Below, one piece after another: positions 16,083 to 60,184 of a DNA stretch of 64,000 nucleotides (position 1 is the first letter of the stretch; every line of letters begins with the position of its first letter). The stretch spans positions 3,038,001-3,102,000 of the forward strand of contig NZ_CP157355.1 of the NCBI RefSeq assembly GCF_040047665.1. The letters are read 5' to 3'. The stretch is from Chitinibacter sp. FCG-7 (GTDB lineage Bacteria; Pseudomonadota; Gammaproteobacteria; Burkholderiales; Chitinibacteraceae). The notes beneath the pieces are model-generated. The model made no database searches, was not told the DNA's origin, and saw nothing but the letters and a program-made list of their open reading frames with translations. The position numbers and the translations under genes were made by a program.

Positions 16083-16131
16083 GGGTATTGCCCTGAAAGG
16101 CAGTCCCGATATTACCTACAGAGATATACCC
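16083..16131. repeat. 49-bp dyad element, intergenic, perfect ends
   Basis: GGGTATTGCCCTGAAA left arm and CTACAGAGATATACCC right arm, exactly 49 bp, in the coaBC-dut gap directly upstream of the dut ribosome-binding site. Confidence 0.9.
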
Positions 16132-16145
16132 ATAAAGGAAATGAT

Positions 16146-16601
16146 ATGAGCAAGAAAACCATGGATGTAAAAATCCTCGATGCCCGCCTGAAAGATAATC
16201 TGCCAGCCTATGCCACGCCCGGTGCGGCGGGGCTGGACTTGCGTGCGTGTCTGGATGCGCCAATCGAGCTGGCACCCGGTGCCACGACGCTGGTGCCCAC
16301 CGGCATGGCGATTCATCTGGAAGATCCGACACTGGCGGCGATGATCCTGCCGCGCTCGGGTCTGGGCCACAAGCACGGCATCGTACTGGGTAACCTGGTT
16401 GGCCTGATCGATTCGGATTATCAGGGCCAGCTGTTTGTGTCGGTATGGAATCGCGGCAATGCCAGCTTTACGATTCAACCGCTGGAACGCATTGCACAAC
16501 TGGTGATCGTGCCGGTGGTGCAGGTGGCGTTTAATATTGTGGATGAATTTGCCGAGTCGGATCGCGGCGAAGGCGGTTTTGGTAGCACCGGCAAGCACTA
16601 A
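16146..16601 (+). CDS. dut: dUTP diphosphatase
   Basis: Trimeric dUTPase: dUTP to dUMP and PPi, keeping uracil out of DNA and feeding dTMP synthesis. 151 aa, standard length. All five motifs are visible: [11 protein letters not shown] (1), [11 protein letters not shown] (2), [19 protein letters not shown] (3, with the catalytic-water Asp), [11 protein letters not shown] (4), [12 protein letters not shown] (5, C-terminal arm). Start ATG 16146 with AAAGGAAATG upstream; the open frame continues upstream to 16071 through the 49-bp element, but that is not coding-like. A terminator follows. Confidence 0.98.
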
Positions 16602-16605
16602 GCTG

Positions 16606-16629
16606 CAAAGGGGCTGTTTAGCCCCTTTG
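16606..16629. terminator. bidirectional intrinsic terminator (dut / ugpQ)
   Basis: CAAAGGGGCTGTTTAGCCCCTTTG hairpin between the convergent genes; the T-run is short on either side. Confidence 0.75.
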
Positions 16630-16632
16630 AAC

Positions 16633-17310
16633 TTAAGCTGTTCTGGCTTTCAGCCCCGGCACATGTTCGGGGTGATCGCAAATCAGCCCCGCCAGCGGCC
16701 AGGTCAGTGCGGTGGCATATTCGTCGGCGTGCTGCAGGCCGTACACCCAGCACGGCACTTGTTGGCGCGTCAGCTCAGCAATTTGCTCGCCCGAGGCGAT
16801 CTCGTAATCAAACACCAGACCCACCCCGACCGGGCGCGGTACGGTGGCCAGCATGGTGTACAGATTGATTGTGCGCACCGGTGAGTTGGCCAGTAGCAAC
16901 GCGCAGGGCAGCTGGGTATCGCGTGCGATAGTCAAAATCAGCTGATGATGGAAGGAGCTGATCAGCCCTTTAAATGGCTGTGCTTGCGCTTCCAGTACCG
17001 CGCGGGTCGCATCCAAGCAGTCCGCCGATTTGAGTTCCAGATTCCAGAATGCTGTGGGAAAGGCCGCCAGTGCTTCGCTTAGCGTCGGAACCGGATAGCC
17101 TTGTATGTCGCACAGCTGGGCGTGCGTTAGTGCTTTGACCAATTGTCCATCGGCCGCACAACGATCGTGAAACAGAATGGCCACGCCATCACGATCACAA
17201 CGGATATCGGTTTCAAAACCCACCATCCCTGCGGCCCAGGCCTCGCCAAAAGCTGCAAGTGTGTTTTCGGGGTGATTGCGGGTCCAGCCGCGGTGTGCAA
17301 TGTAATGCAT
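16633..17310 (-). CDS. ugpQ: glycerophosphodiester phosphodiesterase
   Basis: 225-aa GDPD-family TIM-barrel enzyme that hydrolyses glycerophosphodiesters to sn-glycerol 3-phosphate and an alcohol; cytosolic UgpQ type, no signal peptide. Motifs: IAHRGWTRNHPENTLAAF at the N-terminus (catalytic His and Arg), ETDIRCDRDGVAILFHD (metal-binding Glu/Asp and second His), and LELK (about 123-126). Convergent with dut and divergent from the patatin-like gene. No ugpABCE genes nearby, so a scavenging role for phospholipid breakdown products is inferred. Confidence 0.92.
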   Translation of the reverse strand: MHYIAHRGWTRNHPENTLAAFGEAWAAGMVGFETDIRCDRDGVAILFHDRCAADGQLVKALTHAQLCDIQGYPVPTLSEALAAFPTAFWNLELKSADCLDATRAVLEAQAQPFKGLISSFHHQLILTIARDTQLPCALLLANSPVRTINLYTMLATVPRPVGVGLVFDYEIASGEQIAELTRQQVPCWVYGLQHADEYATALTWPLAGLICDHPEHVPGLKARTA

Positions 17311-17386
17311 GTTGGGTACACTCGAATTCGATGGCGCATTGCCAGATTAAACTTGTTATTAACTGCCTTGAGCAGGAATCAAATTG

Positions 17387-19633
17387 ATGATCACTCGCCA
17401 AATTATGGTGTCTTTCCTATTGAGCCTGAGCGTGCTGGGCGCCAGTGTAGCATCGTCTGCCGCTGTGCAGACGTCTGCATCGTCGGCCGCTGCCACAGTG
17501 GCGGCGCGCCCGGCAGGCGATCAAGCCCGGCCACGCATCGGGCTGGTGCTGGGTGGGGGCGGGGCACGTGGCTTTGCCCATATCGGCGTGCTCAAGGTGT
17601 TGGAAGAAAACCGGATTCCTGTCGATTGCGTTGTGGGCACTAGTATTGGCTCGCTGGTGGGGGCGGCTTATGCCGCGGGGCGTAGCAGTGAAGAGATGAC
17701 GCAGCGGATTCAGGCCGCCAACTGGGACGATCTGCTCTCATCCAGCCTGCCGCGCCAGATTAATTCCTACCGCAAAAAAAATGACGATGCACTGGGCCTG
17801 ATCGGTCTGGAGCTTGGCCTGGGTGATGATTTGAGTATCAAGCTGCCCAATGCGGCAATCAGCACGCAGAAAATCGAATTTTTCCTGCGTGAGCTGACTT
17901 ATGCGGGGACAGTCCGGCATTTTGACGATCTGCCAGTGCAGTACCGTGCCGTGGCGACCGATCTGGTGACAGGCCAGATGGTGGTGTTTGAGGATGGCGA
18001 TATTGTGACCGCCATGCGCGCCAGTATGGCAGTGCCTGGCGTATTTCCGGCGGTGAATAGCAAGGATTACGTCCTGGTTGATGGTGGCCTGGTGCGCAAT
18101 ATGCCGATTGATGTGGCGCGGCAAACCTGCGCAGACGTGGTGATTGCGATTGATGTGGGTGCCGAGCCGCTCAAGCGTGAGGAGCTAAATAGTATTTTCT
18201 CGGTGGCCGATCAGTACACCCGGCTGATGATGGTGCAAAACGTCAAACCGCAGCTTGATTCGCTGACGGCCGATGATGTACTGATTTCGCCGCAGCTGGG
18301 CTCCATGTCGTCCAGTGATTTCAAAAAATCGGCCGAAATGATCAAGGCCGGCGAGCTGGCCGCGCTGGTCGCTTTGCCGCAGCTGCAGCGTTACGCAGTG
18401 TCTGCCGGGCAGTTTGCCAGCTGGTCACAAAACCGGCTTGGGCGGCATCTGCAAAGCCGCGCGATTGCCAGTGTAGAAGTGAAAAACCCGAATCAGGTGA
18501 ACCCGGCGGTGCTTGAAAATGCGCTGGAAGTCAAAACCGGCGAGCCGCTGGATTTGCCCGAGTTTCATAAAAATCTGGCCACGGTGTATGCGCGCGGGGA
18601 CTTTAGCCAGCTCGATTACGAGCTGCACCGCAAAGGAGGAGATGATGAGCTGCATATCCTGCCGATTGAGAAATCCTGGGGGCCCAATTATCTGAATTTC
18701 GGCATCGGAGTGGGTACCGATTTTCGCGGCTCAACGCCATGGACGATTAGCGCAATGTACCGGCGCACCTGGATCAATTCGCTGGGCGCGGAATGGAAAA
18801 CGCTGGCGCGGGTAGGGACGACCGAAGAAATCCGCAGCGAGTTTTACCAGCCCTTGCATCTGGATGGGCTGGCTTTTATTGCGCCGTATGTTAGCTACAA
18901 AACCGAGCCTTTGTCGCTGTGGCTGGATGGCAAGCAATTTGGTGATTATGAATACCGGCGACTTACGGCGGGGGTTGATTTAGGTTCGACGCTGACCAAG
19001 TATGGTGAGGCACGTCTGGGGCCGGTGCTCAATTTGTACAAGCTTAAGGAAAATATCGGCATTCCGCTATTTGATGGTGGTTCGGCCAGAGATCTGGGCG
19101 TACATGCCAGCCTGTTTTATGACCAGCTGGATAATTATTTCTTTCCTAGCGATGGCGAGTATCTCAATCTGAATGCCTATCTGTCGGTGAAAAACGGCAG
19201 CGACATCAATCATTATTTCCGCCTCGGCGGCGAATTCAGAACCGCACGCAAGCTGGCCTCGGGGGCTGGCGTTCTCACTGTGCGTGCGCAGGAACAAGTC
19301 GGCGAGGCACCCGATTTTGTCGATATTCGCTGGCTGGGTGGCTTTCTGAATATGTCGAGCTACCGCTATCAGGAGCTGCTGGCCAACCGTTTTCTGTATG
19401 CCTCCTTGCAGTATTACCAGCCAACCAGCCTGTTGCCCAAAAGCTACTGGGGGCTGGCGCTGGAAGGCGCGCACCTGTTTGAGCAGCTCAATGCCTACGA
19501 CGAAAAGCGCTGGCGCTCATCCGCCGCGGCCTATCTGGCATACGATAGCTTTCTGGGGCCGATTTATCTGGGTATGGCCTATGGCGATAACGCGATGTGG
19601 AGCGCCTACTTTATGCTGGGTAAGCAGTTTTAA
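17387..19633 (+). CDS. patatin-like phospholipase with C-terminal beta-barrel (PlpD-type, type Vd)
   Basis: 748-aa exported protein. Signal peptide at residues 1-27 (ITRQIMVSFLLSLSVLGAS). Patatin phospholipase domain about 45-340: oxyanion loop GGGGARGFAH, nucleophile Ser86 in GTSIG, catalytic Asp232 in DGGLVRN. Then a POTRA-like segment (about 360-430, ASVEVKNPNQVNPAVLENA) and a roughly 300-residue 16-strand Omp85-like barrel with alternating aromatic strands, ending in Phe (FMLGKQF). This is the architecture of Pseudomonas PlpD. By analogy it would be an outer-membrane phospholipase A. ATG 17387 was chosen with AGCAGGA upstream; a TTG lies one codon before. Confidence 0.93.
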   Translation: MITRQIMVSFLLSLSVLGASVASSAAVQTSASSAAATVAARPAGDQARPRIGLVLGGGGARGFAHIGVLKVLEENRIPVDCVVGTSIGSLVGAAYAAGRSSEEMTQRIQAANWDDLLSSSLPRQINSYRKKNDDALGLIGLELGLGDDLSIKLPNAAISTQKIEFFLRELTYAGTVRHFDDLPVQYRAVATDLVTGQMVVFEDGDIVTAMRASMAVPGVFPAVNSKDYVLVDGGLVRNMPIDVARQTCADVVIAIDVGAEPLKREELNSIFSVADQYTRLMMVQNVKPQLDSLTADDVLISPQLGSMSSSDFKKSAEMIKAGELAALVALPQLQRYAVSAGQFASWSQNRLGRHLQSRAIASVEVKNPNQVNPAVLENALEVKTGEPLDLPEFHKNLATVYARGDFSQLDYELHRKGGDDELHILPIEKSWGPNYLNFGIGVGTDFRGSTPWTISAMYRRTWINSLGAEWKTLARVGTTEEIRSEFYQPLHLDGLAFIAPYVSYKTEPLSLWLDGKQFGDYEYRRLTAGVDLGSTLTKYGEARLGPVLNLYKLKENIGIPLFDGGSARDLGVHASLFYDQLDNYFFPSDGEYLNLNAYLSVKNGSDINHYFRLGGEFRTARKLASGAGVLTVRAQEQVGEAPDFVDIRWLGGFLNMSSYRYQELLANRFLYASLQYYQPTSLLPKSYWGLALEGAHLFEQLNAYDEKRWRSSAAAYLAYDSFLGPIYLGMAYGDNAMWSAYFMLGKQF

Positions 19634-19758
19634 GGCGTGAGAAGATCAATGCATAGATTGCATTTTTGCCACTTGCCCCCATATGGCAGGACATTAATGC
19701 AAAGCTGTAGCGCGTTACCTGGCTGATAGGGTCGCCGCACAGTCAACGAAGTGATCAT

Positions 19759-20916: not shown

Positions 20917-21054
20917 TTTCTGCTCCAGTAAGGCGCTCGGTGGGCAACAAGGCCCGCAAGTCTGGTATCCTTGTGGGGAGCGCCTTGGGTAGCAAGGCCG
21001 TAAAAGAACAACTCAAGCTGCATTGAGTCATAAGACGAGTAGAGATTAAACACG

Positions 21055-22347
21055 ATGACCGACACGCAACTAGGTGCGCTAATCATCGCCGGCGCATTTG
21101 TTGGCGCGGTATTTGCCTACAACCAGTGGCAGGAATACCGGTACAAAAAACAGGCCAATAAAGCCTTCGCGAACAATCGGCGCAATCAGGACGATGTGCT
21201 GATCAATACCCCGAAAAATCTGGTTCGCAAGGGTGATCCGCAACGACTGGAGCCGGTGCTCGATACGCCAGCCCTGCCGCAGGACGAGCGTGAAGCCGAG
21301 CCGCTCCAGCCGCCAGTTCTGAGCGAGCCCGAATACGATGTACCGAAGTACACCCCCACACCCGTGCGCTATGACGAAGACATGCCGGACGATGTGCCGG
21401 ATTTGCCGCCATCATACCGCCCAACGTATGTGTCACCAGCCCAGTCAGTAGAAGCACCTGCGGCTTATACCCCTGAGGTGGCTGCGCCAGTGAGCGACTT
21501 TACTGCCGCCCCAGCCAGTGCGCCTGTGCGCAGCTTTGATGATGCCGAAGAAGATGTGCTGGTCACCAGCCTGATCGACCCGGCGCTGGATTTTATTGCC
21601 GAAGTTCACGCCGGTCAGGCCATCGCTGCTGCCGATGTGCCGCCGTTTCCGGCGACCAAACGCGTGCAGATAATTGGTTTGAATCAGCTCGATCAATGGG
21701 AAACCGTTAATTCAACCAGCCGCAATCGCTATCTGGAGCTGCGGGTGGGCATGCAGCTGGCTGATCGCCAGGGCGCGCTAACGCAGGAGTCGCTCAACGC
21801 CTTCTGTATGGGGGTGCAGCAATTTGCCGATGAGCACGAAGCGGTTGTTACATTCCCGCAACGCTCGGCCAAGCTGGCTGCTGCACGCGAGCTTGATGAT
21901 TTCTGTGCCTCGGTCGATGTGCTGATTGGCTTGAATATTCCGGCGGGGGCGCGGCCGATTCCGATGGAAAAAGTGCGCCTGCACGCCGAAAACGCCGGTA
22001 TGGTGCGCGCCAATGATGGCACTTTCCAGTATCGCAGCGATTCGGGTAAAACCCTGTTTGTGCTGGCCAATCAGGATCAAACGCCACTGATGGCCACCTC
22101 GAAAGGCCTGACCTTGCTATTTGACGTGCCGCGCGTGGCGGGCGGGATTGCCGTCTTTGATTACCTGACCGAATTTGCCCAAAGTCTGTCGCAAGCGCTG
22201 GCGCTGGAGCTGGTTGATGACAATGGCAAGCCGCTGAACGCCAAAAGCCTGGCCAATATCCGTCGTCAGCTGGCCGAGCTGTACGCCAGCATGGACGATC
22301 GCGGTATTGCGCCCGGTTCAGTGGCCGCGCTGCGCTTGTTTGCCTGA
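21055..22347 (+). CDS. zipA: cell division protein ZipA homologue
   Basis: 430-aa inner-membrane divisome protein that tethers FtsZ to the membrane. N-terminal transmembrane anchor about 5-23 (TQLGALIIAGAFVGAVFAY) followed by a basic stretch. A long Pro/Glu/Asp-rich linker of about 170 residues comes next. The C-terminal ZipA FtsZ-binding domain (about 260-400) includes GLTLLFDVPRVAGG and an FDYLTEFAQSLSQALALELVD stretch typical of ZipA. Position directly before ligA is the conserved zipA-ligA arrangement. The linker is acidic and longer than in E. coli ZipA (328 aa total). Confidence 0.88.
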   Translation: MTDTQLGALIIAGAFVGAVFAYNQWQEYRYKKQANKAFANNRRNQDDVLINTPKNLVRKGDPQRLEPVLDTPALPQDEREAEPLQPPVLSEPEYDVPKYTPTPVRYDEDMPDDVPDLPPSYRPTYVSPAQSVEAPAAYTPEVAAPVSDFTAAPASAPVRSFDDAEEDVLVTSLIDPALDFIAEVHAGQAIAAADVPPFPATKRVQIIGLNQLDQWETVNSTSRNRYLELRVGMQLADRQGALTQESLNAFCMGVQQFADEHEAVVTFPQRSAKLAAARELDDFCASVDVLIGLNIPAGARPIPMEKVRLHAENAGMVRANDGTFQYRSDSGKTLFVLANQDQTPLMATSKGLTLLFDVPRVAGGIAVFDYLTEFAQSLSQALALELVDDNGKPLNAKSLANIRRQLAELYASMDDRGIAPGSVAALRLFA

Positions 22348-22377
22348 TTGGAGCAACGATAGTTACGGGTGTTTAAC

Positions 22378-24919
<2,542 letters not shown>

Positions 24920-25009: not shown

Positions 25010-25058
25010 GGGTATAGGTCTGTAGCTGTTTTTTCACTTGCTTTGCAGGGATATACCT
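25010..25058. repeat. 49-bp dyad element, intergenic, right end ATACCT
   Basis: Left arm GGGTATAGGTCTGTAG and right arm TTGCAGGGATATACCT; same 49-bp length as the perfect copies. In the ligA-galU gap. Confidence 0.8.
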
Positions 25059-29501: not shown

Positions 29502-30563
29502 ATGACAATTTTAGTTACAGGCGGCGCTGGATTTATCGGCGGCAATTTTGTGTTGGACTGGCTGGCGGGTACGGATGAAGCCGTGGTCAATGTCGATAAA
29601 CTGACGTATGCCGGTAACCTCGATACCCTGCAAGGGCTGCAGGGCGATACCCGGCATGTTTTTGTGCGTGCCGATATTGGTGATCGCGACGTGATGGGCC
29701 GTTTGCTGGCTGAGCACAAACCACGCGCGGTGATCAATTTTGCGGCCGAATCGCATGTCGATCGCTCGATTCATGGCCCCGGTGATTTTATCCAGACTAA
29801 TGTGGTCGGTACTTTCAATCTACTCGAAAGCGTGCGCGCTTATTGGAATGAGCTGCCAGCCGATGACAAAGCAGCTTTCCGCTTTTTGCACGTGTCTACC
29901 GATGAAGTGTACGGCACGTTGGAGGCCGATGACCCGCCGTTTTCTGAAACCAACACCTACGAGCCCAATAGCCCGTATTCGGCATCGAAAGCGGCTTCAG
30001 ATCACCTCGTCCGCGCCTGGCACCATACCTACGGCCTGCCAGTATTGACAACCAATTGCTCAAATAACTACGGCCCATATCATTTTCCCGAGAAGCTGAT
30101 TCCGCTAGTGATTTTGAATGCGCTCAATGGCAAGCCATTGCCAATTTATGGCGACGGCCAGCAGATTCGTGATTGGCTGTATGTGAAAGACCATTGCTCG
30201 GCAATCCGCCGCGTATTGGAAGCGGGCAAAGTAGGTGAAACGTATAACGTCGGTGGCTGGAATGAAAAAGCCAATCTGGACGTGGTGAAGACCATTTGCA
30301 GCCTGCTCGATCAATTGCAGCCGCGCACTGATGGCCAAGGCTACGCTGAGCAAATTACTTATGTAACCGATCGCCCGGGCCATGATCGCCGCTACGCGAT
30401 TGATGCGCGCAAGCTTGAACGGGAATTGGGCTGGAAACCGGCCGAAACCTTCGAATCGGGCATCCGTAAAACGGTGGAATGGTATTTGGCCAATCAAGGC
30501 TGGGTGCAAAACGTCACCAGCGGTGCATACCGTGAGTGGGTATCAACCCAGTACGGAGTCTAA
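29502..30563 (+). CDS. rmlB: dTDP-glucose 4,6-dehydratase
   Basis: Second step of dTDP-L-rhamnose synthesis. 353-aa extended SDR. NAD-binding [14 protein letters not shown] at the N-terminus, [13 protein letters not shown], the catalytic STDEVYG, and Tyr159/Lys163 in [20 protein letters not shown]. Start ATG 29502 is preceded by only a weak GGA. First gene of rmlBDAC. The last residues (VSTQYGV) and the stop fall inside a perfect-ended 49-bp dyad motif that continues into rmlD. Confidence 0.98.
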
Positions 30564-30586
30564 TCATGGCCTCTCAGGCAATACCC
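30538..30586. repeat. 49-bp dyad motif, perfect ends, spanning rmlB stop and rmlD start
   Basis: GGGTAT at 30538-30543 and ATACCC at 30581-30586. It contains the rmlB stop, the rmlD ribosome-binding site and the rmlD ATG. The first rmlD residues ASQAIP appear to be extra relative to typical RmlD N-termini. Confidence 0.65.
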
Positions 30587-31480
30587 AAGATATTGGTGAC
30601 GGGTAAAAATGGGCAAGTTGGGTTTGAATTGCAACGCAGCCTTGCGGTACTGGGCGAGGTGATTGCGGTTGATCGCGAAGAATGTGATCTGAGTAATCCA
30701 GAGGCCATTCGTGAGCTCGTGCAGCGCGTTCGCCCCGACATCATTGTTAACCCTGCCGCGCATACTGCGGTCGATAAAGCCGAATCCGAAGTTGAGCTCG
30801 CCACGGCGCTGAACGCGACTGCACCACTGGTGTTCGCCGAAGAAGCAGCTAAAATCGGCGCTTTGCTGGTTCATTATTCGACGGATTATGTGTTTGATGG
30901 TTGCAAAGACGGCTGGTACAGCGAAACCGACACGCCCAATCCGCAGTCGGTCTACGGCAAAACCAAGCTGGCTGGCGAGCTGGCAGTTGCGGCCGCCAAC
31001 CCGCGCCATCTGATTTTCCGTACCAGCTGGGTCTTTGGCGCGCATGGCAGCAATTTTCTGAAAACCATGCTGCGGCTGATGCAACAGCGTAACGCACTCA
31101 ACGTGGTGGCCGATCAGTTTGGCGCGCCAACCTCAGCCAGCCTGCTGGCCGATGTGACGGCGCAAATTATTGCGCAGTATCTACGTTGTGCCAACCAAGC
31201 CGGATTTGCCTACGGCACTTACCACCTGGTTGCCGGCGGAGAAACCAGCTGGCATGGGTATGCTTCGCTAGTTAATGATATAGCTGCCCTGCAGGGCTAT
31301 ACCCTCAAGATCGCTCGTCATGATATTAAAGCGATTCCGAGTAGCGACTACCCAGTACCCGCGCCACGCCCTGCTAATTCGCGCTTAGATACGCAAAAAA
31401 TCCAGACGGCATTTGGCTTGAGCTTGCCGATGTGGCAAGCAGGCGTGCATCAGGTGATGACCTTGCTCAAGCAAGGATAA
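30566..31480 (+). CDS. rmlD: dTDP-4-dehydrorhamnose reductase
   Basis: Final step of dTDP-L-rhamnose synthesis (NAD(P)H reduction at C4). 304 aa. N-terminal ILVTGKNGQVGFELQ, DYVFDG, and catalytic YGKTKLAGE. C-terminal RPANSRLDTQKIQ is typical. ATG 30566, two bases after the rmlB stop, with CGGAG upstream. The frame also opens at 30536, but that start lies within rmlB. A second perfect-ended 49-bp motif (31256-31304) covers SWHGYASLVND to QGYTL in the conserved substrate-binding region. Confidence 0.97.
   Translation: MASQAIPKILVTGKNGQVGFELQRSLAVLGEVIAVDREECDLSNPEAIRELVQRVRPDIIVNPAAHTAVDKAESEVELATALNATAPLVFAEEAAKIGALLVHYSTDYVFDGCKDGWYSETDTPNPQSVYGKTKLAGELAVAAANPRHLIFRTSWVFGAHGSNFLKTMLRLMQQRNALNVVADQFGAPTSASLLADVTAQIIAQYLRCANQAGFAYGTYHLVAGGETSWHGYASLVNDIAALQGYTLKIARHDIKAIPSSDYPVPAPRPANSRLDTQKIQTAFGLSLPMWQAGVHQVMTLLKQG
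31256..31304. repeat. 49-bp dyad motif, perfect ends, inside rmlD
   Basis: GGGTAT at 31256-31261; right arm CTGCAGGGCTATACCC (ending 31304) matches the intergenic right-arm consensus well, the left inner arm less so. Confidence 0.65.
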
Positions 31481-37504: not shown

Positions 37505-37553
37505 GGGTATTGCTCTGTAGAGCAATTGCAGTATGACCTACAGGGTAATACCC
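37505..37553. repeat. 49-bp dyad element, intergenic, perfect ends
   Basis: GGGTATTGCTCTGTAG and CTACAGGGTAATACCC: the most symmetrical copy, with 14 of 16 arm positions complementary. Between convergent wbpM-like gene and rng, where it may also act as a terminator-like hairpin. Confidence 0.95.
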
Positions 37554-39038: not shown

Positions 39039-40058
39039 TTAAATCCGCTGCGTACCGGGGTTGATCAGAAGTAAAGCCAGGTCGGTGAATTCGTTCCAGA
39101 CATCGCCATCGCCAATGCCCTTGATCAGGCCATCGATCCGGCGGGCGAGCTGCAGGGCGGCTTTCAGGCGTTTGGCATTGACGCGGCTGGCCGCCGCTTC
39201 GATAAAGCGCTGCTTATTGCCCCAGATGCGCAAATCTTTGGTCAGCTGCGCTGCGGCAACGCCGCGCGAGCGCCCCTGGGCAAATTTGTACAGTGTTCGT
39301 GTTTCTTCGGCGAGCGCCCAGAGCACCAGCACTGGCGATTCGCCCTCGGCGCGCAGCCCGGCCAGCATATGGCAGACGCGGCTGGCGTCGCCGCTGAGCA
39401 CCGCTTCGCCGAGGTTGAAAACGTCGTATCGTGCCACATTGGCCACCGCAGCTTCCAGCTCGGCCAGCGTCAAGACGCCTTTGGGGTGCAGCAGGGCGAG
39501 TTTCTGGATTTCCTGATGTGCCGCGAGCAGATTGCCTTCGACGCGGTCGACCAGCCAGGTCATCGCGTCGTCAGCCAGGCTTTGCCCTTGCAGGCTAAGG
39601 CGCTGATTAATCCATTGTGGTAGGGCGCTGCGCTCGATCAGCTTGGCTTCGATCACTTCGCCCGCTTTCGCCAGCGCCTGCATCCATTTGCTATTGAGTG
39701 CAGTTTTGTCCAGCTTGGGTAGCGTGATAATGGTGAGTATATCGCTGGGAAGGTTGCTGGCAAAGCTCTCCAGCGCTTTACCCCCCTCAGTGCCGGGCTT
39801 GCCATTGGGAATGCGCAATTCCAGCAAGCGCAGTTCGGCAAAAAGCGACATGGTCGCGCCGCTGGCTTGCAGCTGCGACCATTGAAAATGGGCGGCGTTC
39901 TCCACCGTGAGTACTTCGCGTTCGCTATAGCCTGCCTGACGCGCCGCATCGCGGATGTGTTGCGCCGCTTCCAGCGCCAGCAGCGCCTCGTCACCGTGGA
40001 TGACATACAGCGGAGCCAGCCCGCGCTGCAGCGCCCGGGGGAGTTCGTCAGGGCGCAT
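39039..40058 (-). CDS. holA: DNA polymerase III delta subunit
   Basis: Clamp-loader delta subunit that opens the beta clamp. 339 aa, normal length. Recognisable features: LYVIHGDEALLALEAAQHIRDAA at the N-terminus, LRLLELRIPNGKPG, WINQRLSLQGQSLADDAM, and the AAA-lid stretch with YDVFNLGEAVLSGDA and ALAEETRTLYKF. The start is coupled with the lptE stop (the end codons share bases at 40058). The order leuS-lptE-holA is conserved in beta- and gammaproteobacteria. Confidence 0.95.
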   Translation of the reverse strand: MRPDELPRALQRGLAPLYVIHGDEALLALEAAQHIRDAARQAGYSEREVLTVENAAHFQWSQLQASGATMSLFAELRLLELRIPNGKPGTEGGKALESFASNLPSDILTIITLPKLDKTALNSKWMQALAKAGEVIEAKLIERSALPQWINQRLSLQGQSLADDAMTWLVDRVEGNLLAAHQEIQKLALLHPKGVLTLAELEAAVANVARYDVFNLGEAVLSGDASRVCHMLAGLRAEGESPVLVLWALAEETRTLYKFAQGRSRGVAAAQLTKDLRIWGNKQRFIEAAASRVNAKRLKAALQLARRIDGLIKGIGDGDVWNEFTDLALLLINPGTQRI

Positions 40059-40871: not shown

Positions 40872-43843
<2,972 letters not shown>

Positions 43844-46669: not shown

Positions 46670-46718
46670 GGGTATTGCCCTGCAGCTTTTATTTAGATTG
46701 AGCTACAGGCGTATACCT
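46670..46718. repeat. 49-bp dyad element, intergenic, right end ATACCT
   Basis: GGGTATTGCCCTGCAG left arm and CTACAGGCGTATACCT right arm; 49 bp, directly in front of purN. Confidence 0.85.
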
Positions 46719-48729: not shown

Positions 48730-50067
48730 ATGACACCAAAGCAATTATCTGCCACGCTTGATATTTTGAATTCGGCGCTGGGTTTTAACGCCCCTGCAGA
48801 TGCCGTGGTCTCGCGCCATTTTCGCGAAAACAAGGATTTAGGGCATAAAGATAGGGCTGTCATTGCGGAAACCGTATTTAGCATGCTGCGCCATTTGCCG
48901 CAGCTCGAATGGCTGGCAGGCAGTAGCGAGGCGCGCCTGGCCAGTACGCGTGAATTGCTGCTGGCTTACTTTACCCGGATCAAGCATCTGAATGTGCGCG
49001 AGCTGCCAGCGGTATTTACCGATGAAGACAAAGAGCGTGCCGGTGCGATGAAGGGTATGGCGCTACGTGACGCGCCACTCAACGTGCGTGCGGCTATACC
49101 CCAATGGCTGGTTGATGCTATGCTGGCCGAAGGTCAGACGGAAGAGCAGATTCTGGCTATGGGCCTGGCCATGTTGCAGCCTGCGCCACTGGATGTGCGC
49201 GTCAATAGCATTAAGGCCAAGCGCGAAGCCGTTGCCGCCGAGCTGAAAGCCGCAGGCGATATCAACACCACGCCAACGCCATATTCACCTTGGGGTTTGC
49301 GTGTGGAAGGCAAGCCCGCAATCAACAAATACAAGTGCTTTATCGAAGGCCGTGTTGAAGTGCAGGATGAAGGCAGCCAGCTACTCGGTTTGTTATCGGG
49401 CGTGAAACGTGGCCAGATGGTGACGGATTTCTGCGCCGGTGCTGGCGGTAAGACTTTATTGCTCGGTGCGATGATGCAAAATACTGGCCGTTTGTATGCC
49501 TTTGATGTATCGGAAAAACGGCTGGCCAACTTAAAACCGCGTCTGGCGCGCTCTGGCCTATCGAATGTGAATCCACAGCTGATTGCGTCGGAAACCGATC
49601 AGAAGATCAAGCGTCTGGCTGGCAAAATGGACGTCGTGCTGGTTGATTCGCCGTGTTCCGGCATGGGTACGCTGCGCCGTAATCCAGACCTGAAAATGCG
49701 CCAGTCGGCGAGCAGTGTGGCTGAGTTGAATGAGAAACAGCGCGCTATTCTGAAGTCAGCAGCGCGTCTGGTGAAAAATGGTGGCCGCCTTGTGTATGCT
49801 ACTTGCAGCTTCTTGCACAGTGAAAATCAGGCCATTGTGCGTGAGTTTCTGGCGACGCATCCTGATTTTCAGCTGCTCGACGCACGCGAACTGCTGGCCA
49901 AAGAGCGCGTTGAGATTGCCTTGAGCGATGAGTTCCTGCAATTGACGCCGCAGCAGCATCAGACCGATGCTTTCTTTGCTGCGGTGCTGCAGCGTGTTTC
50001 GGTCGAAAAAGCCAAAGCACAGGAAGAATCGGCCATGTTGTCGGCTGAGGATGAGGTGGCTGAGTAA
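48730..50067 (+). CDS. RsmB/NOP-family rRNA cytosine-5 methyltransferase
   Basis: 445-aa SAM-dependent RNA m5C methyltransferase. N-terminal NusB-like helical part (about 1-140), catalytic domain from about 215: DEGSQLLGLLSGVKRGQMV, SAM motif DFCAGAGGKTLLLGA, motif IV DSPCSGMGTLRRNPD and motif VI TCSFLHSENQA (the two Cys for release and catalysis). Related to RsmB but the N-terminal part is short, so the target (C967 or another site) is uncertain. A perfect-ended 49-bp dyad motif (49053-49101) lies within. A strong terminator follows. Confidence 0.9.
   Translation: MTPKQLSATLDILNSALGFNAPADAVVSRHFRENKDLGHKDRAVIAETVFSMLRHLPQLEWLAGSSEARLASTRELLLAYFTRIKHLNVRELPAVFTDEDKERAGAMKGMALRDAPLNVRAAIPQWLVDAMLAEGQTEEQILAMGLAMLQPAPLDVRVNSIKAKREAVAAELKAAGDINTTPTPYSPWGLRVEGKPAINKYKCFIEGRVEVQDEGSQLLGLLSGVKRGQMVTDFCAGAGGKTLLLGAMMQNTGRLYAFDVSEKRLANLKPRLARSGLSNVNPQLIASETDQKIKRLAGKMDVVLVDSPCSGMGTLRRNPDLKMRQSASSVAELNEKQRAILKSAARLVKNGGRLVYATCSFLHSENQAIVREFLATHPDFQLLDARELLAKERVEIALSDEFLQLTPQQHQTDAFFAAVLQRVSVEKAKAQEESAMLSAEDEVAE
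49053..49101. repeat. 49-bp dyad motif, perfect ends, inside RsmB-type gene
   Basis: GGGTAT at 49053-49058, ATACCC at 49096-49101. The gene's reading frame here is K-GGT-ATG, a different frame from the copies in ligA, rmlD and the GNAT gene. Confidence 0.6.
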
Positions 50068-51440: not shown

Positions 51441-51489
51441 GGGTATTGGCTGGAAAGCCTTGCTGTATATTAATTGAGATGATATACCC
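51441..51489. repeat. 49-bp dyad element, intergenic, perfect ends
   Basis: GGGTATTGGCTGGAAA and TTGAGATGATATACCC, 49 bp, between petC and sspA, next to the petC terminator. Confidence 0.85.
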
Positions 51490-51491
51490 GT

Positions 51492-51519: not shown

Positions 51520-51540
51520 ATTCGTTACTGAAGCTGCAAA

Positions 51541-52299: not shown

Positions 52300-52309
52300 G
52301 GCTGTCTCC

Positions 52310-53668
52310 TTAGATGAATGTGCCGAACAGATAAGCGCCAACCACCGCGATGGCGACGTAAACAATGAACATCATCTGCTGTTTGCCGGTCGAGAAAGTC
52401 ACACGCTCAGGTATTGGCGCGCAAGGCTTCTCGTTCTTGGTATAGAACGGCATACCCAGGAAGAAGGCAAAGTAAACAATACTCAATACTTGTGAAACCA
52501 CTGTACGGAAATCCGTTGCTGGTTTCGCACCCAAGATGCCCAGACCGATAAACGAAATCAAGAACAATACCAGCATGACTTTGAAGCTAGTCGGACGGTA
52601 GCGAATTGATTTGATTGGGGAGCGATCGAGCCATGGCAGGAAGGCCAGAATCACTACCCCTGCACCCATGCCCAGTACACCCCAAACTTGCGTACCCAAG
52701 AAAGACGGGATTGCGCGCAAGATGGCGTAGAACGGCGTGAAATACCATACGGGTGCGATATGCGCTGGTGTTTTCAGTGCGTCAGCAGGGTCGAAATTAG
52801 GGTGTTCCAGGAAGAAGCCGCCCATTTCCGGGGCAAAGAACAGTACGCCGCAGAATACTGCCAGGAATACCGCCACGCCAAACACGTCTTTTACCGTGTA
52901 ATAAGGGTGGAACGGGATACCATCGCGCGGAATGTGCGTCACCGGATCTTTGTTTTTCTTGATTTCAACGCCATCAGGGTTGTTCGAACCCACTTCGTGC
53001 AGTGCAACCAAGTGCGCAACCACCAAGGCCAGCAACACCAGCGGCACAGCAATCACATGCAGTGCAAAGAAGCGGTTCAGTGTGGCATCAGAAACCACAA
53101 AGTCACCACGAATCAGTACTGACAGATCCGGGCCGATCACCGGGATTGACGCAAACAGATTCACAATCACCTGCGCACCCCAGAATGACATCTGACCCCA
53201 AGGCAACAGGTAGCCCAGGAATGCTTCAGCCATCAAGATCAGGAAAATAAGTACGCCGAACACCCAAACCAATTCACGCGGTTGCTTGTATGAACCGTAA
53301 ATCAAGCCACGGAACATATGCAGGTAAACGACGACGAAGAACATCGACGCGCCCGTTGAGTGCATGTAACGGATAATCCAGCCACCCGCCACGTCACGCA
53401 TGATGTATTCAACTGATGCAAAGGCCACCGAAATATTGGTGCCCGGGATCAGGTTGCCATCGGGTTTGTAGTTCATCGTCAGGAAAATACCGGTGACGAT
53501 CTGGATCACCAGCACCAACATGGCCAGCGAACCGAAGAAATACCAGAAATTGAAGTTTTTTGGTGCGTAATACTCGGAAACGTGGGCTTTCCAGGTGCTA
53601 GTGAGCGGAAAGCGCTCGTCGACCCAGTTCAATACCTTTTCCGGTACAGCGTTTAATTGAATGCTCAT
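52310..53668 (-). CDS. petB: cytochrome b of the bc1 complex
   Basis: 452-aa inner-membrane subunit with both b haems and the quinone sites. Full-length cytochrome b (fused b6/subunit IV) with about nine hydrophobic helices. Haem-binding His occur in RYMHSTGASMFF and FALHVIAVPL-type segments; the Qo-site motif is PEW-like in TPAHIAPVWYFTPFYAILR. An additional C-terminal helix is present. A near-perfect 49-bp dyad motif (52409-52457) lies within the last transmembrane region. Starts 11 bases downstream of petA. Confidence 0.97.
   Translation of the reverse strand: MSIQLNAVPEKVLNWVDERFPLTSTWKAHVSEYYAPKNFNFWYFFGSLAMLVLVIQIVTGIFLTMNYKPDGNLIPGTNISVAFASVEYIMRDVAGGWIIRYMHSTGASMFFVVVYLHMFRGLIYGSYKQPRELVWVFGVLIFLILMAEAFLGYLLPWGQMSFWGAQVIVNLFASIPVIGPDLSVLIRGDFVVSDATLNRFFALHVIAVPLVLLALVVAHLVALHEVGSNNPDGVEIKKNKDPVTHIPRDGIPFHPYYTVKDVFGVAVFLAVFCGVLFFAPEMGGFFLEHPNFDPADALKTPAHIAPVWYFTPFYAILRAIPSFLGTQVWGVLGMGAGVVILAFLPWLDRSPIKSIRYRPTSFKVMLVLFLISFIGLGILGAKPATDFRTVVSQVLSIVYFAFFLGMPFYTKNEKPCAPIPERVTFSTGKQQMMFIVYVAIAVVGAYLFGTFI
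52409..52457. repeat. 49-bp dyad motif, near-perfect, inside petB
   Basis: AGGTATTGGC at the left (one mismatch, and like the 51441 copy after it) and ATACCC at the right, exactly 49 bp. Confidence 0.5.
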
Positions 53669-53679
53669 GACTTAGCCCC

Positions 53680-54264: not shown

Positions 54265-54394
54265 AACCCAATCCCTGATTTGTAGGAACGCAATATTCTT
54301 AAACCGCCAAATTCTACCCGAAAGCAGTGCGGAACTTAAAGCTCTCTGATGCGTCTTGGCGGCGCTTTTGCAAAATAAAGTTCAAAACGCGGCT

Positions 54395-54841: not shown

Positions 54842-55584
54842 ACCGGATTGTCCAGGTCAAGATGAAGGTGTTCGAGGCCGAATTCTTCGGCCAGATGCTG
54901 GCCGAGTGCTTTGATGCCGTAGCGTTCAGTTGCATGGTGCCCAGCAGCGATATAGGCCACGCCACTTTCTCTGGCCAGATGGGTGACAAATTCGGATGCT
55001 TCGCCAGTAATAAAGCAGTCAATGTCCAGATTGCTGGCTTCCCGGAAATAGCTTTGCGCGCCGCCAGTGCACCAGGCGATGCGTTGCACGGGCTTGCTGG
55101 CCTCGCCAATCGTCAGCGGCGTGCGATTCAGTTGCAGTACAATATGCTGGCTAAAGGTATCTAGCGACATCGGGACAGGCAGCTCGCCGCGCCATGCCAG
55201 TTCCTGCTCACCAAACCGCCCAGTTGGGATCAACCCCAGTTTTTGCGCCAGCTGGGCGTTATTGCCCAAGGTTTCGTGTGCATCCAGCGGTAAGTGATAG
55301 CCAAACAGATTGATGTCATTGAGCAACAATTTGCTGATTCTCTGCTTTTTGGTGCGGGTAATGATTTGCTCTTCGCCTTTCCAGAAATAGCCGTGATGAA
55401 CCAGAATTGCATCGGCGCCGTGCTCAATGGCTGCTTCAATCAGCGCAAGCGATGCGGTGACGCCGGTCACGATCTTGTGAATCTGGTCTTTGCCCTCAAT
55501 TTGTAAACCATTGGGTGCGTAATCTTTGAATCGTGCCACTGCAAGCAGTTGTCCGATATAATTTTCCAGTTCTTGACGTTGCAT
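54838..55584 (-). CDS. Nif3-like dinuclear metal center hexameric protein (DUF34/YbgI)
   Basis: 248-aa member of the Nif3/YbgI family, which forms toroidal hexamers with a two-metal site; the family has been linked to GTP cyclohydrolase I-like activity but the role is debated. Metal residues are visible: HHGYFWKGE (His-His) and GHHATERYG near the C-terminus (His, Glu). Start 55584; divergent from the DegS-like gene with only 37 bp between. In betaproteobacteria this gene commonly sits between the htrA-type gene and petABC, as here. Confidence 0.92.
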
Positions 55585-55621
55585 TTATTTATTTGAACCT
55601 GCGCATAAAGATAAACGTGAT

Positions 55622-56773: not shown

Positions 56774-56793
56774 GTGCTTGCTCAAATCGCGAT

Positions 56794-56830
56794 CAGGCCT
56801 GATTGGTTTTAATCATCAGGCCTGTTTTAT
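56794..56830 (+). terminator. intrinsic terminator of the DegS-like gene
   Basis: CAGGCCTGAT...ATCAGGCCTG perfect 10-bp stem (56794-56803 with 56815-56824), followed by TTTTATT. Confidence 0.85.
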
Positions 56831-56853
56831 TGAGGGGCTTTTGTTTTTTGTTA

Positions 56854-56902
56854 GGGTATTGCTCTGTACATCATTCTGCATTTTGCTTGTAGCGATATAC
56901 CC
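56854..56902. repeat. 49-bp dyad element, intergenic, perfect ends
   Basis: GGGTATTGCTCTGTAC and TTGTAGCGATATACCC, 49 bp, between the convergent DegS-like and KefB-like genes. Confidence 0.9.
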
Positions 56903-57013
56903 ACGGTGGTGGTGTGTGCGGCTGCTTATGTCAATTCAGCGTTCAAACCCCTTATGCGCCAGAGTGAGGGCATCGCCATCGGAGTAGTCAATCGACTCGA
57001 AGATCAAGTAGCC

Positions 57014-58987
57014 TTAGCGATTACCTTGAAGCAGCAGTATTTCGGCGGCGGCCAGATTTTCGGGCACACCCAGTAGCACCATCACATCGCCGTTTTGTAG
57101 CTGGAAATCGTTGCTAGGCTCGGTAGAGGCCTGGTTTTTACGCCGGATGCTGCGCACTTCCACATGCAGCTGGTTGAGCGCCAATTCGCCGATGGTGTAA
57201 CCAATCGCATGTGCGCTTTGTGTCAGCTGCACCGTATGCAGGCGGGGCTGGTGGCGATCTGAATCTTCGTTTTCTTCGTTCGAGCCGCGATAAAAGCCGC
57301 GAATCAGCTGGTAGCGCGCTTCCCGCACTTCACGAATCCGGCGCACCACCCGGTTGAGAGGTACACCCAGCAGCATCATCGTATGCGAGGCCAGCATCAG
57401 GCTGCCTTCCATGATTTCGGCGACCACTTCGGCCGCGCCGGCATTTTTAAGCAAATCAATGTCGTTATCATCCTGCGTGCGCACAATCACTGGCAGCTCA
57501 GGGCGGATCTGGTGCACCATTTCCAGTATTTTCATCGCCGAATGCGTATCGGCATACGTCACAATCAAGGCGCGGGCGCGCATCAGCCCTGCGGCAATCA
57601 GCACTTCACGCTTGGCAGCGTCGCCAAACACCACTGACTCGCCCGCTGCACCCGCTTCACGCACTTTTTCCGGGTCCAGATCGAGCGCGAAAAAATGGAT
57701 ATTCTCCGAGTGCAGAATCCGTCCCAAGGATTGACCGCTACGCCCATAGCCGCACAAGATGACATGCCCGGTATTGGCCATGCTGCGCACGGCGATCTGA
57801 TGCAGATTGGCGGCCAGATTCATCCATTCTGAGCTGGCCAGCCGCAGTACCAATTTGTCTGAATGCTCGATCAGAAATGGCGTAATCATCATCGACAGAA
57901 TGATCGCCGCCACCGTGCTTTGCAGTAGTGCGGAGGGCATGAAGTTCTGCCCGGCGGCCAGTGCCAGCAAAACAAATGCAAACTCGCCACCCTGACCCAG
58001 GGCAAACCCCGTGCGCCAGGACGTGCCGGGAGAATGATCAAACAGGCGGGCCAAGCCAGCGATAATCATGATTTTGACCGGGCCGAGCAAGACCACCAGC
58101 GCCAGAATGAGTGGCCACTGCGCCAGCAAAATTGCGAAATCGAGGTTCATTCCGACGGTGACAAAAAAGAGGCCGAGCAATAAATCTCGGAATGGGCGGA
58201 TGTCGTCTTCAACCTGATAGCGATATTCGGTCTCGGCAATCAGCATGCCCGCCAGAAACGCGCCCAGCGCCAGCGAAAGCCCCGCCAGTTCGGTCAGCCA
58301 GGCAATCCCCAAAGTAATCAGCAGGATGTTGAGCATGAACAGCTCGCTCGAATGCTGTTTGGCCACCAGATTGAACCAGGGCCGCATTAGTTTTTGTCCC
58401 AGCCAGAGTAATAATGTAAGTACAACGATGATTTTAAGCGCGGCAAAGCTCAGCGAGGCGGCCAATTGCTCGGTCGGTTGACTTAGAACCGGGATCATGA
58501 TCAGAAAAGGGACCACAGCCAGATCCTGAAACAGCAAAATGCCAAACGCATTCTGCCCGTGCGGCGCGTTCAATTCATTCCGATCTGAGAGTAGTTTGGA
58601 CACCATGGCGGTTGATGACATCGCCATGGCTGCGCCCAAAGCCAGCCCAACCTGCCAGCTCATGCCAAACAGCATGACAATGGCGCCAACCAGCAGCAGA
58701 ATGGATAGCACCTGGCTCAGACCCAGGCCAAATACCGTGCGGCGCATGGCCTTGAGTTTGGCCAGATTAAATTCCAGTCCCAGCGTAAACATCAGAAAAA
58801 CCACACCAAATTCGGCTAGATGGCTGGCTTCTTCACTGGAAGGAATCATCCCCAGTGCATGAGGGCCAATCACCATGCCGATCAGCAGATAGCCCAGCAT
58901 CGGCGGCAGCTTGATTTTGCGGCAGATGACCACCGTTACGACGGCAATCGCCAACAGAAGGAGCAAATTTTGCAAAATGGACGACAT
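57014..58987 (-). CDS. monovalent cation:proton antiporter, CPA2 family (KefB/RosB-like)
   Basis: 657-aa inner-membrane K+/H+-type antiporter. About 12 hydrophobic helices (residues 1-385) start ILQNLLLLLAIAVVTVVICR and include LTELAGLSLALGAFLAGMLI and LGQGGEFAFVLLALAAGQ. Then a TrkA-N/RCK domain with HVILCGYGRSGQSLGRIL (GxGxxG). A C-terminal TrkA-C domain (about 570-655, VQLTQSAHAIGYTIGELAL) follows. No glutathione-regulator gene (kefG) is adjacent, so gating is unknown. Divergent from kdsD. Confidence 0.93.
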   Translation of the reverse strand: MSSILQNLLLLLAIAVVTVVICRKIKLPPMLGYLLIGMVIGPHALGMIPSSEEASHLAEFGVVFLMFTLGLEFNLAKLKAMRRTVFGLGLSQVLSILLLVGAIVMLFGMSWQVGLALGAAMAMSSTAMVSKLLSDRNELNAPHGQNAFGILLFQDLAVVPFLIMIPVLSQPTEQLAASLSFAALKIIVVLTLLLWLGQKLMRPWFNLVAKQHSSELFMLNILLITLGIAWLTELAGLSLALGAFLAGMLIAETEYRYQVEDDIRPFRDLLLGLFFVTVGMNLDFAILLAQWPLILALVVLLGPVKIMIIAGLARLFDHSPGTSWRTGFALGQGGEFAFVLLALAAGQNFMPSALLQSTVAAIILSMMITPFLIEHSDKLVLRLASSEWMNLAANLHQIAVRSMANTGHVILCGYGRSGQSLGRILHSENIHFFALDLDPEKVREAGAAGESVVFGDAAKREVLIAAGLMRARALIVTYADTHSAMKILEMVHQIRPELPVIVRTQDDNDIDLLKNAGAAEVVAEIMEGSLMLASHTMMLLGVPLNRVVRRIREVREARYQLIRGFYRGSNEENEDSDRHQPRLHTVQLTQSAHAIGYTIGELALNQLHVEVRSIRRKNQASTEPSNDFQLQNGDVMVLLGVPENLAAAEILLLQGNR

Positions 58988-59104
58988 GCCGCTGGACGCT
59001 TCTCAGTGAGTCAGGATGAAGGAGGGATCAGCCTGTAAAAGGATTGGAAGGCCGATTTGTTTGATGTAAGTATAACTGAAGAAAATGGTATTTATAGCGT
59101 ATGG

Positions 59105-59134
59105 CTGTCATCAAGTGCCGAGGTCTTTTATAAT
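59105..59134 (+). promoter_or_regulatory. sigma-70-type promoter of the kdsD operon
   Basis: -35 CTGTCA (59105-59110), 18-bp spacer, perfect -10 TATAAT (59129-59134). Predicted transcription start near 59141, which excludes the longer open frame from 59057 as the normal kdsD start. Confidence 0.6.
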
Positions 59135-59155
59135 TCGGGCTCAAAAATTAAGGCC

Positions 59156-60133
59156 ATGGTTGAAGTGATGCAAAATGCTTATCGTTGCGCCCGCCGGGTT
59201 TTGGCGGTGGAAGCTGCGGCAATTGAATCGATTTCCGCGCGGCTGGATGAAGCGTTGTTTAATCGTGCCTGTGAATTAATCCTGTCGATCACAGGGCGAG
59301 TTGTGGTGATGGGGATGGGCAAATCCGGCCATATTGCCCGTAAAATTGCGGCAACGATGGCCAGCACTGGCACGCCAGCAATGTTTGTTCATCCGGCGGA
59401 GGCGGCGCACGGCGATCTGGGCATGATTACCCGGCAAGATCTGGTACTGATCTTGTCCAACTCGGGCGAAAGCGACGAGTTGCTGGCTATTTTGCCCAGT
59501 TTGAAGCGTCTGGCGGTGCCGATTGTCTCGATGACCGGGCAGGCCAAATCGACATTGGCGGTGGAGGCCCAGGTACACCTGGATGTGGCGATTGCCGAGG
59601 AGGCCTGTCCGCACAATCTGGCGCCAACCGCCAGCACGACGACGGCTTTGGCGCTGGGTGATGCGCTGGCGATTGCCTTGCTGGAGGCGCGCGGTTTTCA
59701 GGCTGATGATTTTGCCTTGTCGCATCCGGGCGGCAGTCTGGGCCGTCGCCTGCTGGTGCATGTTCGCGATTTGATGCACGGTGGCGCTGCTTTACCGGTG
59801 GTGCAGGAGAATATGAGCTTGCGCGATGCCTTGCTGGAAATCAGTCGCAAAGGCATGGGCATGACGGCGGTCGTTGACGCTGCTGGCCATTTGCAAGGCA
59901 TCTACACCGATGGCGATTTGCGCCGCACACTGGATCACGACTATGACTTGCGTGCCACGTCGGTTGCGACGGTAATGACGCGCAATCCTGCTACCATAGA
60001 GGCTCAGCGCCTGGCCGCCGAGGCGGCGGCCATTATGGAAGAGCGGCGCATCAACGGTTTGCTCGTTCTGGATGAGGGGCGGCTGGTCGGGGCAATCAAT
60101 ATGCACGACCTATTGCGTGCTCGGGTGGTTTAG
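59156..60133 (+). CDS. kdsD: D-arabinose 5-phosphate isomerase
   Basis: Converts ribulose 5-phosphate to arabinose 5-phosphate, the first KDO precursor. About 325 aa from ATG 59156 (MVEVMQNAYRCARRVL); ATG 59168 is also possible. The open frame extends to 59057, but a good promoter lies inside that extension. SIS domain about 35-190: GKSGHIARKIAATMASTGTP, HPAEAAHGDLGMI, LSNSGESDELLAIL. The SHPGGSLGRRLL hinge leads to two CBS domains (about 205-325). First gene of the kdsD-kdsC-lptCAB-rpoN-hpf block. Confidence 0.95.
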   Translation: MVEVMQNAYRCARRVLAVEAAAIESISARLDEALFNRACELILSITGRVVVMGMGKSGHIARKIAATMASTGTPAMFVHPAEAAHGDLGMITRQDLVLILSNSGESDELLAILPSLKRLAVPIVSMTGQAKSTLAVEAQVHLDVAIAEEACPHNLAPTASTTTALALGDALAIALLEARGFQADDFALSHPGGSLGRRLLVHVRDLMHGGAALPVVQENMSLRDALLEISRKGMGMTAVVDAAGHLQGIYTDGDLRRTLDHDYDLRATSVATVMTRNPATIEAQRLAAEAAAIMEERRINGLLVLDEGRLVGAINMHDLLRARVV

Positions 60134-60135
60134 CG

Positions 60136-60184
60136 GGGTATTGCCCTGTACCGTATTGTTCATAATGCTTTCAATGATATACCC
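60136..60184. repeat. 49-bp dyad element, intergenic within the kds-lpt operon, perfect ends
   Basis: GGGTATTGCCCTGTAC and TTTCAATGATATACCC; begins two bases after the kdsD stop and ends 14 bases before kdsC, so it would be transcribed as a hairpin inside the operon. Confidence 0.9.

Follow-up and report, generated by a model that had tools for sequence, protein, structure and literature searches.

What kind of element keeps its length to the base pair, recurs every few kilobases and has a centre that varies from copy to copy? The question is raised by a stretch of 64,000 nucleotides from Chitinibacter sp. FCG-7 (contig NZ_CP157355.1, positions 3,038,001 to 3,102,000; hereafter the window), in which an earlier inspection of the letters alone (the sequence-only reading) had picked out seven copies of a 49-bp dyad with the ends GGGTAT and ATACCC. 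Such a fixed-length dyad marks one clade of chitin-degrading bacteria, is present in about a thousand copies and is scarce in phages and islands. The element is most likely a DNA uptake sequence or ‘self’ label, a putative assignment to which we give roughly even chances. Here, we describe its abundance, anatomy, origin and distribution, weigh this assignment against its rivals and compare the dyad with known uptake sequences.

All seven copies lie where the sequence-only reading had placed them and measure 49 bp each, the two with ACCT ends being those at 25010 and 46670. GGGTAT occurs 22 times on the plus strand of the window, instead of the 20 times counted by eye, and, as claimed, 11 of these hexamers have ATACCC at exactly N37 (37 intervening bases). 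Across the window's own genome (G000, 3.58 Mb), the pattern GGGTAT-N22..N52-ATACCC gives 315 matches, compared with a single match for a reversed-pattern control: 291 are at N37, 16 at N36 or N38 (307 for N36-N38 together) and 8 are spread over the other 28 spacings combined. The excess over neighbouring spacings is thus genome-wide, and the copies are not confined to the window; neither of the two outcomes named beforehand as refuting the proposal has occurred. The constant length is largely borne out, with N38 (50 bp) as a minor form (5 copies, compared with 93 at N37, among the first 100 of the 315 matches listed). These first 100 matches span 32% of the genome and are uniformly spread as far as they are listed. 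The N38 forms are located at G000:C1:111238, 425625, 526064, 621800 and 1082377, and those at 425625 and 621800 recur in the match lists of other species. Visual inspection of the first 100 exact matches also showed two nearly identical sites separated by 570 bp (G000:C1:969074 and 969644).

Degenerate sites were counted with an iterated symmetric profile, using one order-2 shuffle per genome as the control. This gave 91 sites in 304 kb of G000, 52 in 160 kb of the carrier G001, 22 in 100 kb of G014 (Chitinilyticum) and 27 in 100 kb of G024 (Deefgea), with none in any of the shuffles and none, using the same profiles, in 500 kb of five non-carrier relatives. The density is one site per 3.3 kb in the 304 kb, which is mostly core DNA, and one per 4.2 kb over 524 kb that includes regions picked for being site-poor. 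By extrapolation, G000 carries about 850-1,100 sites, compared with the one per 4-5 kb and the hundreds per genome first suggested.

The half-site consensus in G000 is GGGTATngccCTgnAgnncAtnnnn. Most of the information is held by GTAT/ATAC (about 1.7-2 bits per base), followed by A15, A20 and the outer GG, with A15/T35 as the strongest inner position. The original description of shared hexamer ends and arms therefore stands only for GTAT/ATAC, which is near-invariant; the signal in the outer GG/CC and in the inner arms is far lower, and the 17-bp centre is not common to the copies. At distances from the dyad of about 20.5 bp (GTAT), 10 bp (A15) and 5 bp (A20), these positions appear to be roughly helically phased. 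Lone half-sites number 137, compared with 102 in one shuffle, at a score threshold of 8, and 63/37, 23/19, 11/6 and 5/3 at thresholds of 10, 12, 14 and 16, whereas the number of half-sites inside full sites falls from 167 to 94 over the same series. The scores of the two halves of a site are correlated (r 0.28, n=91), and partner positions hardly covary in a set of 169 sites that pools two close species. Since lone half-sites are barely enriched, covariation is slight and half scores are correlated, the sites are most likely read as double-stranded DNA, by a reader for which both halves are required; what counts seems to be the 49-bp pair and not the single half-site, as would be expected of a dimeric reader. 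The earlier idea of a protein-read site with two fixed half-sites agrees with the rigid length, the rarity of lone half-sites and the frozen outer boxes. Each site holds about 32 bits, a value somewhat inflated by thresholding, where 11.7 would be enough to specify one site per 3.3 kb, as would suit a signal that has to stand out from an open pool of foreign DNA.

The signature is restricted to three genera. Besides G000, 149 relatives were searched, and all 15 genomes of Chitinilyticum, Deefgea and Chitinibacter are carriers, with 109-307 copies each of GGGTAT-N36..N38-ATACCC: 307 in G000, 189-297 in the five others of its genus, 162-167 in both genomes of Chitinilyticum and 109-199 in the seven of Deefgea. 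The other 28 Chitinibacteraceae genomes hold 0-2 copies, and 0-3 are found in 107 genomes that represent 50 further families of the order (as defined by the genome collection). In a class-wide draw, 31 of 369 genomes have a match at N37, G000 with 291 and all others with 1 or 2. Among named records, a stricter pattern matches four stretches, from Chitinilyticum aquatile, C. piscinae and Deefgea rivuli. An unrooted tree of ligA proteins (23 rows, from 14 carriers and 9 non-carriers, with G008, G011 and G036 left out) places the 14 carriers on one side of a branch with support of 100/99, which is consistent with a single gain of the signature. The ends are constant throughout the carriers and the inner segment differs by genus, reading CTgnAg-nncAtn in G000, CTgtAG-CCcTTT in Chitinilyticum and atntAG-nCaTTA in Deefgea, in profiles built from one genome each for two genera and two genomes for the third. 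An IHF-like inner ATCAA, considered for the window's genus, was dropped, as the other two genera lack it. In five non-carrier genomes of the family (100 kb each), no other hexamer dyad with a spacing of 20-150 reaches a count above 5, on a scale on which GGGTAT-N37 scores 9-35 in four carriers, and no 10-mer in non-carrier family genomes reaches the density of a DNA uptake sequence (DUS), the most frequent occurring 29 times per 100 kb, both strands counted, in G007. A tandem decamer of the GTGTGAGGTG type is over-represented in G001, a carrier, and in G007, a non-carrier.

How the sites arise can be followed in ligA, where a perfect-ended copy lies within the gene (23204..23252, exact N37). 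In a codon alignment, GGGTAT stands in all 15 carriers where GCCTAT or GCCTAC (GCCTAY) stands in each of the 11 non-carriers examined, out of 28. The right end ATAC is found in 15/15 carriers and 0/11 non-carriers, and the full ATACCC in 12 of the 15, the exceptions being both Chitinilyticum-genus genomes and G015. The exact length between the ends is kept in all carriers, and one codon is missing in 7 of the 11 non-carriers. The signature therefore accompanies an Ala-to-Gly difference, and further amino-acid changes, in DNA ligase. On the same gene, the LigA frame measures 710-716 amino acids in G003-G005 and 811-841 in G000-G002, and the ligA matches of G011 and G036 contain TGA.

A wider comparison is given by 70 sites at 590-850 kb of G000, of which 37, together with 60 bp of flank on each side, could be matched to stretches of G001, which cover the region in part. 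All 37 keep their length and none has a gap of 40 or more; in G001, 35 score at least 14, one is lost and one falls between. GTAT/ATAC differ at 3/296 positions (0/136 in intergenic or overlapping sites, 3/160 in coding ones) and the outer GG/CC at 4/148, compared with 434/4218 in the flanks (12% intergenic, 10% overlapping, 9% coding). A15/T35 and A20/T30 differ at 12/148 positions, and the remaining site positions at 19% in intergenic, 24% in overlapping and 11% in coding sites. Only the outer boxes are therefore clearly constrained between the two genomes. Under looser limits, 42 of 74 sites could be aligned, 13 were broken off or partial near the site and 19 gave no alignment. Shortly after one conserved site (L037 4969-5017), G001 carries about 570 extra bases (L037 5028-5035 compared with L047 4829-5402).

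Sites occur in genes as well as between them. Genes, placed by a simple gene caller made for this analysis, fill 86-90% of the blocks examined, yet of the 91 sites in G000 only 40 are within genes, 40 are intergenic and 11 overlap a gene boundary; intergenic DNA is therefore favoured, and intergenic sites score higher (38.5, compared with 26.3). The copies first listed are indeed intergenic, but the element as a whole is not, with 5 of the 11 perfect-ended copies in the window lying wholly in genes. Spacing was tested in the window and in the 590-850 kb stretches, the latter chosen for synteny with G001 and leaning to core DNA. It is more even than under a null that preserves the coding or intergenic class of the sites, with a pooled coefficient of variation of 0.63 compared with 1.03 +/- 0.10, and 0/2000 null values as low; by block, the coefficients are 0.62, 0.71 and 0.57, with 0, 4.4% (the smallest block) and 0.4% of null values as low. 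The largest gap in the 304 kb is 10.1 kb.

Two prophage regions and three islands are poor in sites. Portal genes, by which prophages were chosen, mark them in 2 of 13 carriers tested and, measured site to site, the prophage region of G005 covers 43.6 kb without a site (13.0 expected) and that of G024 covers 48.9 kb with two weak sites (13.2 expected). Beside the G005 prophage, a further 31 kb (G005:C1:928833-960001) is site-free, with G+C falling to 0.43. Three islands in G000 were picked because exact sites are sparse there, and their emptiness is therefore descriptive: a site-free 36 kb (G000:C1:223797-259944) with a type VI secretion cluster (TssF, IcmF, DotU, VipB and a ClpV-like AAA protein; 9 proteins scanned), a nearly site-free 386-406 kb with flagellin and sugar-modification genes (10 proteins scanned), and G000:C1:850-910 kb, with 5 sites in 60 kb, a tRNA gene array and an integrase-family gene that is confined to the part near the tRNAs (10 proteins scanned). 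A viral contig collection, which may hold few phages of these hosts, gave 0 matches to a 20-base-specified pattern. Absence of the signature flags prophages and islands. A CRISPR (clustered regularly interspaced short palindromic repeats)-like array lies at G000:C1:767919 onward (L039 17919-20000) and runs to the end of the stretch; its 32 copies of GTTCACTGCCGTACAGGCAG (reverse strand) follow one another every 60 bases among those listed, and the repeat resembles type I-F repeats.

As a putative uptake sequence, the element would be a double-stranded recognition sequence of two mirror-image half-sites held at a fixed 49-bp length, each comprising the box GGGTAT, a second, weaker box roughly one helical turn closer to the dyad, and a segment specific to the genus. 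Its reader would be the competence or type IV pilus machinery of the clade, which would preferentially bind and import site-bearing DNA; homologous recombination would then write site-bearing alleles into recipients, and uptake bias together with mutation would populate the core genome with sites at even intervals, to the extent that coding constraint permits. We infer that the sites persist through a bias in uptake and not through selection for a function inside the cell. Almost as probable, in our view, is that the paired dyad is a self-DNA recognition code of new architecture, with clade-wide outer boxes, a genus-dialect inner segment and a dimeric reader that would tell kin DNA from that of phages and foreign sources, either during uptake or once it has entered the cell; such a code would be powerful enough to have changed amino acids in a core replication gene. 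Four traits of uptake sequences are seen in the dyad, namely over-representation both in genes and in intergenic DNA, scarcity in newly acquired DNA (the two prophages and the three regions chosen as site-poor), dialects that follow phylogeny (the inner segment differs among the three genera) and an origin by point mutation without insertion (37/37 aligned sites and ligA). Restriction to one clade, even spacing, the low number of sites in divergent intergenic regions (4 of 51) and the presence of ComEC in the 12 carriers tested also speak for uptake. As a lead only, two of the three genera have an inner CTG-N-A that matches the four positions invariant in all DUS dialects, a match estimated to arise by chance about once in 7 tries; the Deefgea profile lacks CTG.

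Several points weigh against uptake. A short single motif active as one copy is not what is found, as the unit spans 49 bp and lone half-sites are at most weakly enriched: DUS measure up to about 13 nt and a single copy is enough, whereas the dyad seems to need two half-sites with their ends 43 bp apart, a layout unexpected in a receptor at the pilus tip but normal for a dimer acting inside the cell. Pasteurellaceae have an uptake signal sequence (USS) that also differs, being unrelated in sequence, about 31 bp as modelled and, according to PMC12616744, not palindromic. ComEC was found in all 23 genomes tested, 12 carriers among them, and ComP_DUS-family pilins likewise in 23/23, in carriers and non-carriers, and neither separates the two groups; no carrier-specific group appears among 19 best-hit pilins, which are different paralogues and so say little on this point (one of the 20 loci gave no pilin frame). 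No uptake experiment on the clade of the three genera was found in the open-licence literature. Outside genes, the inner box is hardly conserved between species (7/56 intergenic positions differ, like the flanks), and most of the distribution evidence would also fit an intracellular site kept by selection.

This last point leads to the strongest rival, in which the sites bind a dimeric protein, specific to the clade, that organises the chromosome or loads condensin and has to find a site every few kilobases, so that selection for nucleoid structure keeps the sites. We consider it unlikely overall, yet a serious contender. The half-sites paired at a fixed length, the strongly conserved outer boxes and the even spacing of about a thousand copies, uniform over the part listed, all agree with it, as does the correlation between half scores, which is expected under a single whole-site constraint and could also be caused by coding context. 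Such a protein had been proposed by the sequence-only reading and is a live candidate, but the distribution fits uptake-type sequences better: site-free stretches of 36-44 kb are tolerated, and some 32 bits far exceed the need of an intracellular binder. parS, Noc sites, matS and SlmA sites are also symmetric and read by dimeric proteins, but they are fewer, shorter and regionally biased, whereas the 49-bp dyad is uniformly spread in about a thousand copies. Nor do carriers have an extra ParB-family gene in common: ParB_N gave a single match in 7 of 10 carriers tested, with additional ones in G001, G023 and G024, and a carrier-wide ParB paralogue (a Noc/ParB-type reader) was not found in these 10, in a search limited to this family of DNA-binding proteins. 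If the reader were intracellular, the sites would form a chromosome-wide, evenly spaced architectural code, for which we know of no match.

Improbable, in our judgement, is a self-recognition or recombination signal, either Chi-like or protecting from a defence nuclease, by which DNA that has a site no more than a few kilobases away would be treated as self inside the cell. Even spacing, scarcity in prophages and islands and the lack of viral-contig matches would all be expected of it, this last argument being limited by the few phages of these hosts that the collection may hold; Chi-type signals are short and strand-asymmetric, whereas the 49-bp site is symmetric. Far less credible is a dispersed mobile repeat, such as a repetitive extragenic palindromic (REP) sequence or a miniature inverted-repeat transposable element (MITE), or its remnants. 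It would account for the high copy number and the inverted-repeat ends and had been offered as an old mobile family, but where this could be tested it is contradicted by the unchanged length of the 37 aligned sites, by the site in ligA, which takes the place of pre-existing codons, and by a centre not common to the copies; no inserted body with empty sites in relatives was seen, and we regard this explanation as refuted for the sites examined. Equally remote is the operator of a very large transcription-factor regulon. Dyad symmetry is typical of dimeric regulators, but concentration at promoters is not seen: of the 51 non-coding or overlapping sites, 32 are in tandem, 15 in convergent and 4 in divergent contexts, compared with 94, 25 and 39 of the 158 gaps of at least 60 bp, the 40 sites inside genes also speak against regulation, and inspection by eye showed no obvious DNA-binding gene alongside the four divergent sites. 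The weakest candidate, a hairpin or terminator that would act as RNA through a conserved stem (the hairpin having been suggested by the sequence-only reading), has in its favour many intergenic copies just after stop codons or between convergent genes and two weak partner signals (11/39, z 2.7; 12/38, z 2.3), but is scarcely tenable given that no covarying stem was found in the 169 sites (nothing at other partner positions, 20/30 negative with z -2.5, total complementarity over positions 7-22 of 6.39 compared with 6.13 +/- 0.14 for shuffled halves) and that 40/91 sites are wholly within genes.

Within the window itself, the seven intergenic sites of the sequence-only reading are located at 16083..16131 (score 46.4), 25010..25058 (ACCT end, downstream of ligA, 42.7), 37505..37553 (48.4, the top score in the window), 46670..46718 (ACCT end, 43.4), 51441..51489 (31.4), 56854..56902 (45.2) and 60136..60184 (37.9), all but the two with ACCT ends being exact N37 copies. 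Besides the ligA site, perfect-ended copies (exact N37) lie wholly in genes at 6945..6993 (23.7), 13495..13543 (37.0), 31256..31304 (33.6) and, in a gene for an RsmB/F-type methyltransferase (Pfam), 49053..49101 (17.3); a further one straddles a gene end at 30538..30586 (24.7). The profile adds a site with a degenerate left end that overlaps a gene start (3086..3134, 34.1), one with a degenerate right end that overlaps a gene end (8891..8939, 31.6) and degenerate sites in genes at 4176..4224 (21.8), 21424..21472 (20.5), 29604..29652 (22.3), 39735..39783 (26.9), 41372..41420 (within leuS as assigned by Pfam, 21.9) and 52409..52457 (28.3).

How, then, does the dyad compare with systems already described? 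No description of the 49-bp element was found in the open-licence literature, as judged from titles and the starts of abstracts and, for PMC11316581, from passages. Chitinibacteraceae belongs to Neisseriales, the order of Neisseriaceae. In the literature examined, uptake sequences are described only for Neisseriaceae and Pasteurellaceae. REP sequences and MITEs resemble the dyad in being dispersed, inverted-repeat-like and present in high copy number, but the dyad shows no insertion and no common body, and combines a fixed length with a drifting centre. The USS, with a core and two AT-tracts, shares with the dyad a longer motif, an origin by point mutation, even spacing and scarcity in new DNA; published accounts give both this origin and this scarcity in new segments for DUS and USS. 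Significantly even spacing and intragenic copies have been reported for uptake sequences (PMC1939737), the author also judging the spacing less even than compaction would predict. The DUS of Neisseriaceae, read by the minor pilin ComP, come from the same order as the dyad and likewise occur in many copies in and between genes, form clade dialects and are low in imported islands. Their dialects, in all of which the CTG-N-A positions are invariant (PMC3630211), adhere to the whole-genome phylogeny (PMC12616744, which also gives the length of up to about 13 nt and the sufficiency of one copy), and islands have been detected by aberrant DUS content (PMC7371117). In Simonsiella and Kingella, DUS occur as overlapping pairs in dyad symmetry; 1,294 simDUS/kingDUS are arranged in this way in Simonsiella, which the authors regard as a possible sign of dimer-based recognition (PMC3630211). 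The uptake role and the receptor of the dyad are putative, being read from sequence, and the dyad is not classed as a DUS or USS: it is not a short single motif, and an obligate 49-bp dyad is unlike those in the literature examined. If the uptake reading is true, it would be a third uptake-sequence system, found in chitin degraders from the environment that share their order with Neisseriaceae. Since it probably arose once, has a dialect in each genus and uses a symmetric site, such a system would allow direct tests of how uptake specificity and molecular drive originate.

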